NCBI GenBank assembly: GCA_013297765.1
Contig: JAAFID010000008.1
Location: forward strand, 1 to 45,971
Length of the DNA: 45,971 bases
Reading direction: 5' to 3'
Origin: Cytophagales bacterium
Lineage (GTDB): Bacteria; Bacteroidota; Bacteroidia; Cytophagales; Cytophagaceae
The position numbers and the translations under genes were made by a program. Under the pieces are notes generated by a model. The model was not told the DNA's origin, searched no databases, and saw only the letters and a program-made list of their open reading frames with translations. Positions 27,125 to 33,460 of this stretch are shown piece after piece (position 1 is the first letter of the stretch; each line of letters opens with the position of its first letter).

Positions 27125-27190
27125 CTTAAATATTACATAAGACTGCACTCTAAAATTTAACAATAATTTAATATTACATTCGTTTTTTGT

Positions 27191-27264: not shown

Positions 27265-27909
27265 ATGGAGATACAAATTATTTTAAGCATCGTCTTTTGT
27301 TACTTATTGGGATCTATACCTACAGCGGTATGGTACGGTAGGTTATTTCACGGAGTAGATGTAAGAGAATATGGGTCTGGCAATGCAGGTGCTACCAATA
27401 CCTTAAGAACACTGGGCAAGCAAGCTGGTGTCATTGTAATGATATTAGATGTATTGAAAGGCTGGGCAGCAACCTATAGTGCCACTTATTTGGTCATATC
27501 GGGTGCTATTCCCGAGCAACATTTGATGATATATAAAATTGGATTCGGAATAATTTCTGTTGTGGGGCATATATTTCCCATTTTTGCTAGGTTCAAGGGT
27601 GGTAAAGGGATTGCTTGTTTGTTAGGTATGATATTGGCCATTAACCTTGAAGTAGCATTGATTTGCGTAGGGGTATTCTCCATAGTTTTTCTACTTTCCA
27701 AATATGTTTCGCTAGGCTCTATGTTGGCAACACTGGCTTTTCCAGTGATTATTTTACTCTTCCCTCGTTTCAATGATGGGGGGCCACTGGTTATTGTGTT
27801 TGGGTTTGCTATTTTTTCTATTGTAGTACTTACACACCAAAAAAACATCATCAGACTGATTAATGGTGAAGAAAGTAAAGTAAGGCTAGGTAAAAAGGAC
27901 AAAAAGTAA
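27265..27909 (+). CDS. plsY: Glycerol-3-phosphate acyltransferase PlsY
   Basis: 214-residue integral membrane enzyme that transfers an acyl group from acyl-phosphate to glycerol 3-phosphate, the first step of phospholipid synthesis. The three conserved cytoplasmic motifs are present: LLGSIPTAVWYGRL, then EYGSGNAGATNTLRTLGK, and ARFKGGKGIACLLG near residue 113, followed by YVSLGSML. Five hydrophobic helices. It stands alone after the giant gene, with a hairpin terminator at 28003-28035. Confidence 0.97.
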   Translation: MEIQIILSIVFCYLLGSIPTAVWYGRLFHGVDVREYGSGNAGATNTLRTLGKQAGVIVMILDVLKGWAATYSATYLVISGAIPEQHLMIYKIGFGIISVVGHIFPIFARFKGGKGIACLLGMILAINLEVALICVGVFSIVFLLSKYVSLGSMLATLAFPVIILLFPRFNDGGPLVIVFGFAIFSIVVLTHQKNIIRLINGEESKVRLGKKDKK

Positions 27910-30353: not shown

Positions 30354-30410
30354 CAAATATAAATAGCCCAATGTTATCGCAATGTTAAGGTAGGTTAAGC
30401 AATTGTTAAG
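30354..30410 (-). promoter_or_regulatory. Pho-box-like direct repeats and -7 element before the T9SS cargo gene
   Basis: On the plus strand GTTAT/GTTAAG elements start at 30373, 30384, 30394 and 30405, i.e. steps of 11, 10 and 11 bases. On the transcribed (minus) strand this reads TTAACA, TTAACC, TTAACA and ATAACA. The -7-like TATATTTG occupies 30354-30361, one helical turn downstream, 24 bases before the ATG. The layout matches response-regulator (PhoB/PhoP-type) activation from just upstream of the promoter. Confidence 0.7.
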
Positions 30411-30428
30411 TTTTGAATTTTTCAAAAT

Positions 30429-30468
30429 AAAAATGGGTTCAAATCGCATGCGATTTGAACCCATTTTT
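30429..30468 (-). terminator. 40-bp palindromic terminator between the receptor and cargo genes
   Basis: Bases 30429-30448 are perfectly complementary to 30449-30468 with no loop base excluded (core GGGTTCAAATCGCATG). On the minus strand a T-run (TTTTTATTTTG) follows. It ends the transcript of the TonB-dependent receptor gene 16 bases after its stop, so the cargo gene relies on its own promoter. Confidence 0.88.
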
Positions 30469-30483
30469 TAAATATTGAGTAAC

Positions 30484-33333
30484 TTAAAAAGTATATCCTA
30501 AAGAGAAATTACTAGTCCAGCCAAATAGGTATTTGAAAGTTTCTACATCTCTATCTTTATCATATTTACCATTATTATTCAAATCTTGATAGAAAACTAA
30601 TGGTTGCGATTTAGCAAGTAAATCGCCTAGTACAGCTCTGACGGTTAGTTTTTTGAAAAACTTTTTAGAAACAGAAAAGTCAAGTACGGTACGAGAATTT
30701 TCATAAATCAAAAATTGAGATTCATTGGCTACAAATGCAATTCTACGTCCTATTCTATTTACCGCCAATGTTACATCAAATCCTTTTTCTAGATTACTAT
30801 ATTGTATTCCACCATTTAATATATATGGCGATTGCCCTTGCAAAGGCCTAGTACCAAGTGTTGCAGCATCTGTTCCTTTTAAATCTACAGTGGACCTGAT
30901 TAAAGCATAATTTGTATACAATGTGAAATTTTCAAATATTTTAGCACCTATTAAGTTGTCAATTTTTTTCAAAGAACTTCTAAATTCAAGTTCAACACCA
31001 AAATTTTGTGCACTTTTAGCATTTACATAAGTAAATGCACGACCACTTGCATTGGGCTGTACACTAGATTCTACTGGACTAGTAAATTTTTTATAAAAAG
31101 GAGTGATGGAGAAAACTTGACCCTCGCCAGGAAATATTTCATATTTCAAATCAATATTATGTATTGTAGCTCTAGTTAAATCCTTGTTCCCAGTTATTAT
31201 TGCATTCAAATTAAAGTCTAGAAATGCAAGAGGAGCAAATTCTCTGAATTCAGGGCGAGAAAGTGTTTTGGAATAAGACAGCCTTAAATTTGATTTTTCA
31301 TTTATTGAATAAATTAAATTTGCAGAAGGCAAGGGATCTGTCCATGTTTTATTGATAGCTATTGGCTCGCCTAAATAGGAAGAATTTAGTTTTTGATTAA
31401 ACGATTCAATTCGAAGTCCCCAAATTAGTCGAAATTTATCATTAAATCTGTTATCAATCATCACAAAACCAGCATTTAGAGTAGATTTAGCCGTGTATCT
31501 GTCTTGTGGTGAAGTTGTTTCTTTCTGGTAAATTCTATCTTTTCTAATATTGTCGCTATTAAAAATAGTAGATGGGGAATTTTGAAAAATGTCATAATCG
31601 GAAAAGCTGTTTTCATTATATGCAAAAACATAATTACGGGCATTAAATACTCTATCTCTATATTGATGAAAGCCACCAATTTTTATTTCATTCTTCACTA
31701 GAAATATGAATGGAATGTTTAATGAATAAGATCCACTGTAAACATTTTCATTTAATGTAGAAGTAAATCGGCCAGAAGTTGATGGCGTAAAAGAAGCACT
31801 TTGCGTTTGTATTATGGCTTGAGATGGCATGAATTCATCAAAACCAGTAGGTTTGTCACTAGAATATAGCAATCTTTTATAGTCTGGAATATTTCTATCT
31901 ATTCTAGTATATCCTGCATTATATTTTAGTTTTATCTTACTATCTCCGAAAGAACTCTCTCCAATTAGTTGAGAAGAAAGCATTTTATTGTCCTGAAACC
32001 AAAACGAATAATCTTGTAGTTTGCTCGTTGATTGGCGTTCTTCAGCATATTTTACACCATTTCTTAGTATGGTTTGATCATCGGAATTGACAGTGTACAA
32101 ATTTTTAAGAGATATTTTATTGTTTAAACCTATTCTGTATGATAAGTTTAATATAGTACCACTGTTTATAGATGTTTTATAGGTATTTATGTTTAAAAAT
32201 TCACCATCTGTTTTTGTAGCATCATTGGTTTCCGATTTACCAAGAAGGGGATTATTGTTTGAGAATGGTGTAAATCTGAATCCTTTGCTATAGGTAGTAG
32301 AAAACAATATTCCGAGTGGATTACCTGCCAAATTTATCCTTCTTGAAAATCCTCCCTGTAAAGAATAATTTGGAGCAATTGATGCGACTCTTTTGGCTTC
32401 AAAATTATTATCAAATAATTTTGATTGAGCAACTAAAATATTAACATCCTTAGTTTTTAATGCAGTTTCGGTATTAAGAATTTCTGAGTTAGGAGCTTCG
32501 CCATTTCCTATAATACTTAACGAATTTTTTGTTGGGCTTTGGTAATACTCTTTAAAAGTAGTTAATGAGTGCGTACTTGCACCCACATTTAGGAAAAACG
32601 AATTTTCTTCGGGGATATCTTTGGTATTGATTTGAATAATTCCTCCTGCAAAGTCACCTGGCATATCTGGCGTTGCCGTTTTTGATATCATTAAATTATC
32701 TAAAAGATTGGCTGGAACAATATCAAACGAAAAAGCTTTTCTATCAGATTCTGTGCTCGGCATAGGTACACCGTTTAGCAAGGCCATATTGTATCTATCG
32801 TTTAGCCCTCTGATGATGGCAAATTTATTTTCTTGTATGCTGGCTCCACTTATTCTTTTTAACACATCGCTGGTAGACTTATCTGGCAATCTTCTAAACT
32901 GCTCCGCAGATATACCAGTAACCATCGCCACTGAATTTTTTTGTTGTATTAATAGGGCATTTACCGTCTCTCTCTTGGCCTCTGCCTGCACTACTACTTC
33001 GTTTAGTTGTTCGGCGGCTTCAGCTATTACGGCATTGGTGTAGGTAGTTTCTTTGTCTTTAACTTCTACACCGCTTATTTCTTCAGGGGTGTATCCCAAA
33101 TATTCTATTTTTAGTTTGTAGGTACCTGCGGGTACGGTGATAAAATAATTGCCATCAAGGTCAGTAACACCGCCAGTATTGGCACCTTCTACGGTAATGT
33201 TGGCACCGATTACGGTTTCGCCTGTGTTTTTATCTACTACTTTTCCTGCTATTTTTCCTTGGCCAAAAGTGGCTACTGCTGCTAGCAAACCTAATATAAG
33301 TGTTGCCGCAACTTTCATAAAATTTGTATTCAT
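30484..33333 (-). CDS. TonB-dependent outer-membrane receptor
   Basis: About 949 residues from the ATG at 33333 (alternative 33318); an upstream in-frame ATG at 33420 would put 29 hydrophilic residues before the signal peptide. Order: signal peptide (AATLILGLLAAVATFG), carboxypeptidase-like regulatory domain (GKVVDKNTGETVIGANI...GYTPEEISG) at about 26-110, plug domain (ISAEQFRRLPDKSTSDVL, then IRGLNDRYNMALLNGVPMPS) at about 130-245, and a 22-strand-type barrel ending in aromatic F (NFSLGYTF). It takes up an unknown ligand with TonB energy. No SusD partner is present, so this is not a classical glycan (Sus) locus. Three TTAACA repeats lie upstream. Confidence 0.95.
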   Translation of the reverse strand: MNTNFMKVAATLILGLLAAVATFGQGKIAGKVVDKNTGETVIGANITVEGANTGGVTDLDGNYFITVPAGTYKLKIEYLGYTPEEISGVEVKDKETTYTNAVIAEAAEQLNEVVVQAEAKRETVNALLIQQKNSVAMVTGISAEQFRRLPDKSTSDVLKRISGASIQENKFAIIRGLNDRYNMALLNGVPMPSTESDRKAFSFDIVPANLLDNLMISKTATPDMPGDFAGGIIQINTKDIPEENSFFLNVGASTHSLTTFKEYYQSPTKNSLSIIGNGEAPNSEILNTETALKTKDVNILVAQSKLFDNNFEAKRVASIAPNYSLQGGFSRRINLAGNPLGILFSTTYSKGFRFTPFSNNNPLLGKSETNDATKTDGEFLNINTYKTSINSGTILNLSYRIGLNNKISLKNLYTVNSDDQTILRNGVKYAEERQSTSKLQDYSFWFQDNKMLSSQLIGESSFGDSKIKLKYNAGYTRIDRNIPDYKRLLYSSDKPTGFDEFMPSQAIIQTQSASFTPSTSGRFTSTLNENVYSGSYSLNIPFIFLVKNEIKIGGFHQYRDRVFNARNYVFAYNENSFSDYDIFQNSPSTIFNSDNIRKDRIYQKETTSPQDRYTAKSTLNAGFVMIDNRFNDKFRLIWGLRIESFNQKLNSSYLGEPIAINKTWTDPLPSANLIYSINEKSNLRLSYSKTLSRPEFREFAPLAFLDFNLNAIITGNKDLTRATIHNIDLKYEIFPGEGQVFSITPFYKKFTSPVESSVQPNASGRAFTYVNAKSAQNFGVELEFRSSLKKIDNLIGAKIFENFTLYTNYALIRSTVDLKGTDAATLGTRPLQGQSPYILNGGIQYSNLEKGFDVTLAVNRIGRRIAFVANESQFLIYENSRTVLDFSVSKKFFKKLTVRAVLGDLLAKSQPLVFYQDLNNNGKYDKDRDVETFKYLFGWTSNFSLGYTF

Positions 33334-33432
33334 AAAATTGGTTAGTTTCTCGAAGAAATATGATTTGTTAAATCTGCATGGTTTAACAGTTACAAAATTA
33401 CTACATCCACTTTGTGGCATGCTAAAATGTAT

Positions 33433-33460
33433 GTTAAGGAATTGTTAAGCTAATGTTAAG
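33433..33460 (-). promoter_or_regulatory. Three 11-bp-spaced TTAACA repeats upstream of the receptor gene
   Basis: GTTAAG begins at 33433, 33444 and 33455 on the plus strand, exactly 11 bases apart; on the minus strand each reads CTTAACA/CTTAACAT. This is the same element as before the cargo gene. Possible -7 elements on the minus strand are TACATTTT at 33424-33431 (one mismatch) and TAATTTTG at 33393-33400, which is farther away. Confidence 0.65.

Follow-up and report, generated by a model that had tools for sequence, protein, structure and literature searches.

Pho-box-like repeat arrays upstream of a TonB-dependent receptor and a predicted T9SS-exported beta-helix protein in a Cytophagales bacterium

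Two neighbouring minus-strand genes of a Cytophagales bacterium, one encoding a TonB-dependent receptor and the other a putatively secreted protein (here called the cargo), are each preceded by TTAACA-like direct repeats (Table 1). The stretch of DNA analysed, referred to as the window, is 45,971 nucleotides long (contig JAAFID010000008.1). A first-pass annotation of the window had proposed that the repeats are Pho boxes of a phosphate-starvation regulon. Members of the Bacteroidota contribute heavily to the breakdown of organic matter, and little of their phosphate response has been mapped. The locus raises the question of whether these repeats are genuine control elements, which signal they would serve, and whether the two genes act as a pair.

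Table 1. Coordinates of the receptor and cargo genes and of their putative control elements in the window
Feature	Position	Strand	Details
Candidate Pho-box array of receptor, CTTAACA-TTAG-CTTAACA-ATTC-CTTAACA	33460..33432	minus	Three perfect half-sites, steps 11/11 bp; kept in relatives
Receptor -7 element TAATTTTG (TAnnTTTG)	33393..33400	minus	31 bp past last clear half-site
TonB-dependent receptor, 949 aa	30484..33333	minus	Carboxypeptidase-regulatory-like N-domain, plug, barrel; no adjacent SusD
Strong hairpin with T-run, likely terminator	30430..30467	minus	Between receptor and cargo; fold -25.5 kcal/mol, z -7.2
Candidate Pho-box array of cargo, CTTAACA-ATTG-CTTAACC-TAC-CTTAACA-TTGC-GATAACA	30410..30372	minus	Four half-sites, steps 11/10/11 bp
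Cargo -7 element TATATTTG	30361..30354	minus	Starts 10 bp past last half-site; 9-10 bp also before pstS in relatives
Cargo, 619 aa	28471..30330	minus	Signal peptide, YRGAFGTTDW module, right-handed beta-helix core, T9SS type A sorting domain; ElpS/FII-like family

Pho boxes of Bacillus subtilis PhoP and Escherichia coli PhoB are direct repeats with 11-bp steps, and the window arrays are alike in this respect. A triple CTTAACA array with three mismatches or fewer was found once in the window and in none of 100 shuffles, while TTAACA-N5-TTAACA with at most one mismatch occurred six times (shuffle mean 1.09, maximum 4). The repeats described earlier upstream of both genes are thus real and far above chance, although their coordinates had been one base off. 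Likewise, the repeat period of 11 bp holds at every step but one, a 10-bp step in the cargo promoter, and the half-site, first given as TTAACA, is amended to CTTAACA. Its letters resemble those of B. subtilis, whereas the geometry, with the box ~10 bp before a core promoter element, is that of E. coli; unlike either model, the arrays are coupled to TAnnTTTG, the -7 element of Bacteroidota, and up to ~5 half-sites may precede the receptor. The statement that such arrays are not seen elsewhere in the window is true of CTTAACA pairs with no more than one mismatch. Other two-half-site matches (1580, 21183, 27156, 41225 and 44998) are weaker, at chance level, and were set aside; the one at 27156-27173 lies ~90 bp before a plsY-like gene (27265-27909) and scores no better than chance matches.

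The -7 element assigned to the cargo promoter, TATATTTG, begins one helical turn after the array, and a -7-like element absent from the first-pass annotation, TAATTTTG, was found before the receptor. A longer in-frame receptor start at 33420 would fall upstream of this proposed element and lacks support from homologues. The cargo promoter of a sister species (G001) reads CTTAACA-TTAA-CCATAGC-TTT-CTTAACA-TTTC-AGTAATA, followed after 10 bp by TAAATTTG; because its 11/10/11 layout and distance to the -7 element are identical, the 10-bp step cannot be regarded as noise. In pstS promoters, TAnnTTTG or TAnTTTG usually begins 9-10 bp past the second half-site. When 23 receptor promoters were aligned on TAnnTTTG, the half-site score, calculated with a hand-set list of weights modelled on pstS promoters, peaked at -38, -49, -60, -16 and -27, forming an 11-bp comb (score 3.11, compared with 2.46 for the best of 300 shuffles). 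A second set of 67 receptor promoters, taken from a GTDB scan with the sister species left out, was clearly separated from 353 other promoters (p = 3e-19), and its 31 anchored members reproduced the comb offsets; the two sets have a few genomes in common (L231 and G037, for instance, carry an identical promoter), making the second mostly, not wholly, independent. Judging by these alignments, the element before the receptor is phase-locked to the Bacteroidota -7 element across the phylum. The literature searched, mostly papers outside subscription, contained no account of tandem Pho boxes in Bacteroidota. The present analysis maps a candidate control sequence for the phosphate-starvation response of this phylum. 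A Pho box at a fixed distance from the phylum's promoter element would make Pho regulons readable from genomes phylum-wide.

A pattern search of the whole genome returned five exact CTTAACA-N4-CTTAACA sites, compared with none for the reversed control. Two overlapping sites precede the receptor, one sits 87 bp upstream of pstS in front of pstSCAB-phoU, one precedes a calcineurin-like phosphoesterase gene followed by a glycosyltransferase gene, and the last precedes DUF1801/nrdBA. The phosphoesterase is probably PlcP-like, a name that we infer from its domain and the neighbouring gene, and the arrangement fits the PlcP and glycosyltransferase lipid-remodelling genes reported in the Pho response of Flavobacterium johnsoniae (PMC8115612). 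The genome scan suggested in the first-pass annotation thus favoured its proposal, four of the five exact sites lying before pst-phoU, the plcP-like lipid-remodelling gene and, twice, the receptor. The fifth (G000:C157:12959-12976, L012), before DUF1801 and divergent from nrdBA, has no evident phosphate link and speaks against a Pho reading. Exact TTAACA-N5-TTAACA occurred eight times in the genome, compared with two for the reversed pattern, while pairs with one mismatch showed no genome-wide excess (52 versus 66 in the reversed control); the loose motif being unenriched, the C ahead of TTAACA evidently matters. Exact matches without this leading C at C2 (fabD), C85 and C243 were accordingly discounted as probably due to chance. 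Near the start of fabD, a TTAACA or CTTAACA pair is present in this genome (G000:C2:9060, L009) and, oriented the other way, in three genomes of another genus (L194, L198 and L201).

A single strong full-length match to a PhoB-type regulator was present in the genome, on C79 beside a PhoR-like histidine kinase (the match to TIGR02154, at 215.8 bits, falls short of the curated cut-off), and these two genes would supply the cognate PhoR-PhoB pair. No array was found upstream of the genome's own phoB, which counts against the Pho reading, and porin O/P (PF07396) is absent from the genome.

Conservation was considered at several taxonomic distances. Nineteen genomes of the same family contained 30 exact sites, compared with a single reversed-control site, and all 59 order-level genomes contained 41 versus 8. 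Genes adjoining the relatives' exact sites included pstS in nine genomes, proteins resembling phosphate porins (placed with O/P by eye), cargo homologues and a PhoB-like regulator; further genes next to such sites show no evident phosphate link. Of the 19 pstS promoters in relatives, 10 carried a mismatch-free site no further than 250 bp from the start, and 11 carried one with at most one mismatch (shuffles, none). The nine pstS promoters without an exact site weigh against the Pho reading and indicate that the motif diverges beyond the nearest genera. Among receptor promoters, 13 of 30 had a site with at most one mismatch within the same distance (shuffle mean 0.015, maximum 1). With the cargo and receptor arrays of the sister species, these counts confirm that the arrays are conserved before orthologues. 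At class level, 10 of 16 pstS promoters had a match with up to three mismatches, versus 0 of 16 for the reversed control. Against the Pho reading, just 8 of 65 receptor loci from named genomes had arrays with at most one mismatch, which leaves the signal at wider range dependent on the summed score, a weaker measure. Receptor promoters L228, L252 and L276, labelled Melioribacter, Ignavibacteriae and Ignavibacteriaceae, carry the array with 0-2 mismatches, and the element may reach beyond Bacteroidota. One exact site in a relative (G007:C22:230004, L203) precedes a gene for a large secreted protein that starts DLLISELLPNPNGTDSPFEYVEL and by its look may contain a lamin-tail domain and be an EndA-like nuclease.

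An origin of the repeats by chance in AT-rich DNA, for which the 52 versus 66 count of one-mismatch pairs might be cited, is ruled out for practical purposes by the five exact pairs against none, by the absence of the triple array from 100 shuffles and by conservation across species.

A regulator of the OmpR family sensing a signal other than phosphate (for instance envelope or redox state), with pst and the receptor-cargo pair as part of a broad regulon, is a rival explanation of the arrays. The PhoP motif of Riemerella anatipestifer has the core TTTAACA (PMC9603813); as the motif of a PhoP/PhoB-type regulator of Bacteroidota it resembles the window arrays and counts in favour of the Pho reading. 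The accessible part of that study reports PhoP binding before hundreds of genes in a regulon extending beyond phosphate, with the motif likened by its authors to that of ArcA (PMC9603813). This breadth, and the exact site before DUF1801/nrdBA, fit a broad regulon and to that extent count against the Pho reading. Unlike the window arrays, the Riemerella motif is not described in that part of the paper as an 11-bp tandem Pho box (PMC9603813). Moreover, four of the five exact sites of the genome belong to pst-phoU, the plcP-like gene with its glycosyltransferase and the receptor; sites in relatives favour pstS; and the matching F. johnsoniae locus was induced when Pi was depleted and repressed when N or Fe was limiting (PMC8115612). 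We consider a non-phosphate signal quite improbable.

Very probably, then, the repeats are Pho boxes bound by PhoB, which would induce the receptor and the cargo together with pst under phosphate starvation, the pair capturing phosphorus. As far as sequence can tell, the regulon first proposed is supported by the pst and plcP-like sites, by the arrays before orthologues, and by a PhoB homologue, often with PhoR, at the same locus in 21 of the best 80 cargo loci. Under this model, phosphate starvation would lead PhoR to phosphorylate PhoB, a regulator of the OmpR family. Each CTTAACA half-site would take up a single PhoB monomer, neighbouring monomers lining up along the same helical face, and PhoB bound in this way would place RNA polymerase on the downstream TAnnTTTG. 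The hairpin with a T-run between the two genes implies that the cargo needs a promoter of its own; receptor and cargo would thus be transcribed from separate promoters, split by a terminator, and would be induced at the same time as the plcP-like gene and pstSCAB-phoU. The T9SS would export the cargo to the cell surface or the medium, where cargo and receptor might capture phosphorus-containing molecules or aid phosphatases, and the receptor would import the product.

The T9SS part of this model draws on the C-terminal type A sorting domain of the cargo, which scores above curated cut-offs (PF18962, 37.1 bits, cut-off 27; TIGR04183, 40 bits, cut-off 23) and is also found in the sister species. 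The earlier description of the cargo as T9SS-secreted needs the amendment that its family also holds lipoproteins without a T9SS tail. The cargo itself has no lipobox, its signal peptide being followed by QEFFDKV, and for this reason it is named ElpS/FII-like rather than a typical member. The proposed pairing without SusD was likewise correct: a SusD domain was not found in the neighbouring gene, the receptor scored 72.8 bits against a SusC/RagA cut-off of 368, and the pair appears to lie outside the SusCD/PusCD systems.

The biology of such pairs is largely known, and the one described here is a variant of a system published in Flavobacterium and Caulobacter. In F. johnsoniae, PUSIV consists of phoR-phoB, the TonB-dependent receptor Fjoh_0545 and the lipoprotein FII Fjoh_0546, with receptor and FII strongly induced by low Pi (PMC8115612). 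Common to both loci are a TonB receptor, a surface protein of the beta-helix (pectin-lyase) fold, the absence of SusD and putative membership of the Pho regulon, Fjoh_0546 being likened to the cargo by description; unlike in PUSIV, phoBR here is encoded away from the locus, the cargo bears a T9SS tail but lacks a lipobox, and receptor and cargo are each preceded by a separate array. Chryseobacterium sp. BLS98, where phoR-phoB is divergent from receptor-cargo, repeats the order of Fjoh_0543-0546; Chitinophaga arvensicola also encodes the receptor-cargo pair. ElpS (CC0170) of Caulobacter crescentus is made only under phosphate starvation; when overproduced it increases alkaline phosphatase activity outside the cell, although it is itself no phosphatase, and elpS-CC0171 is reported ahead of T2SS genes (PMC2996285). 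It resembles the cargo as a phosphate-starvation surface protein encoded beside a TonB receptor, the link being made via homologues on Sphingomonas and Indioceanicola plasmids that also precede T2SS genes (Sphingomonas cargo homologue, 37% over 253 aligned positions, E = 1e-28; receptor homologue, 26%, E = 5e-48). Phylum and promoter type differ, however, and ElpS is a lipoprotein with T2SS-aided release, whereas the sorting domain of the window cargo is of the T9SS type. The Caulobacter receptor adjoining elpS was reported as constitutive (PMC2996285), which counts against a Pho reading. By these comparisons the cargo lies beside a TonB receptor of the type that accompanies ElpS/FII-like proteins.

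The alternative that survives best accepts the Pho regulon and holds that the cargo is an independent surface protein or adhesin merely adjoining the receptor. In its favour, the two genes have separate putative promoters with a terminator between them, and in the ElpS study no action of the receptor on ElpS could be demonstrated (PMC2996285). Nevertheless, a co-oriented receptor was found near the cargo in 67 of the 80 best cargo loci (not a random sample), and the adjacency extends to alphaproteobacteria with T2SS genes; an independent cargo thus seems unlikely, if by a lesser degree than the alternatives above. Read as a functional pair, receptor and cargo would most likely help to capture organic phosphorus. 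A defined Pho box would open the pair, which has relatives among the most induced F. johnsoniae proteins, to direct tests as a phosphorus scavenging system.

Sequence searches found no relative of the cargo in PDB, and the AlphaFold model of the cargo (P0001, pLDDT 70) gave only weak Foldseek matches. For a lipoprotein relative, a confident model (pLDDT 90) takes the form of a right-handed beta-helix, with NosD, pectate lyases and alginate epimerases as structural neighbours (Z 21-24); it reveals the fold, not the function. Further cargo-family proteins are encoded in the same genome (G000:C172, L138; G000:C85:537-2291, L011), with no clear array found before either gene. Most cargo relatives are lipoproteins, and in nearly all of these a YxGAF..DWT..W module is C-terminal. 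In the window species, its sister species and two other genomes the corresponding YRGAFGTTDW..W module lies instead near the N-terminus, and a Sphingomonas homologue matches it likewise in its N-terminal part. The position of the module looks like the outcome of a circular permutation or of a moved module. We would tentatively entertain, as possible though doubtful, a pair dedicated to phosphorus capture, whose beta-helix protein, rearranged and exported by T9SS, would serve its own TonB receptor as a binding partner, secreted or at the surface, in SusD's stead, within a family routed to the surface in three ways (lipoprotein anchor, T2SS-linked release and T9SS). Two acidic segments of the cargo family, DD..EWFGG and DDDFD.D.G, hardly vary, and one can only guess that they bind a metal or a ligand.
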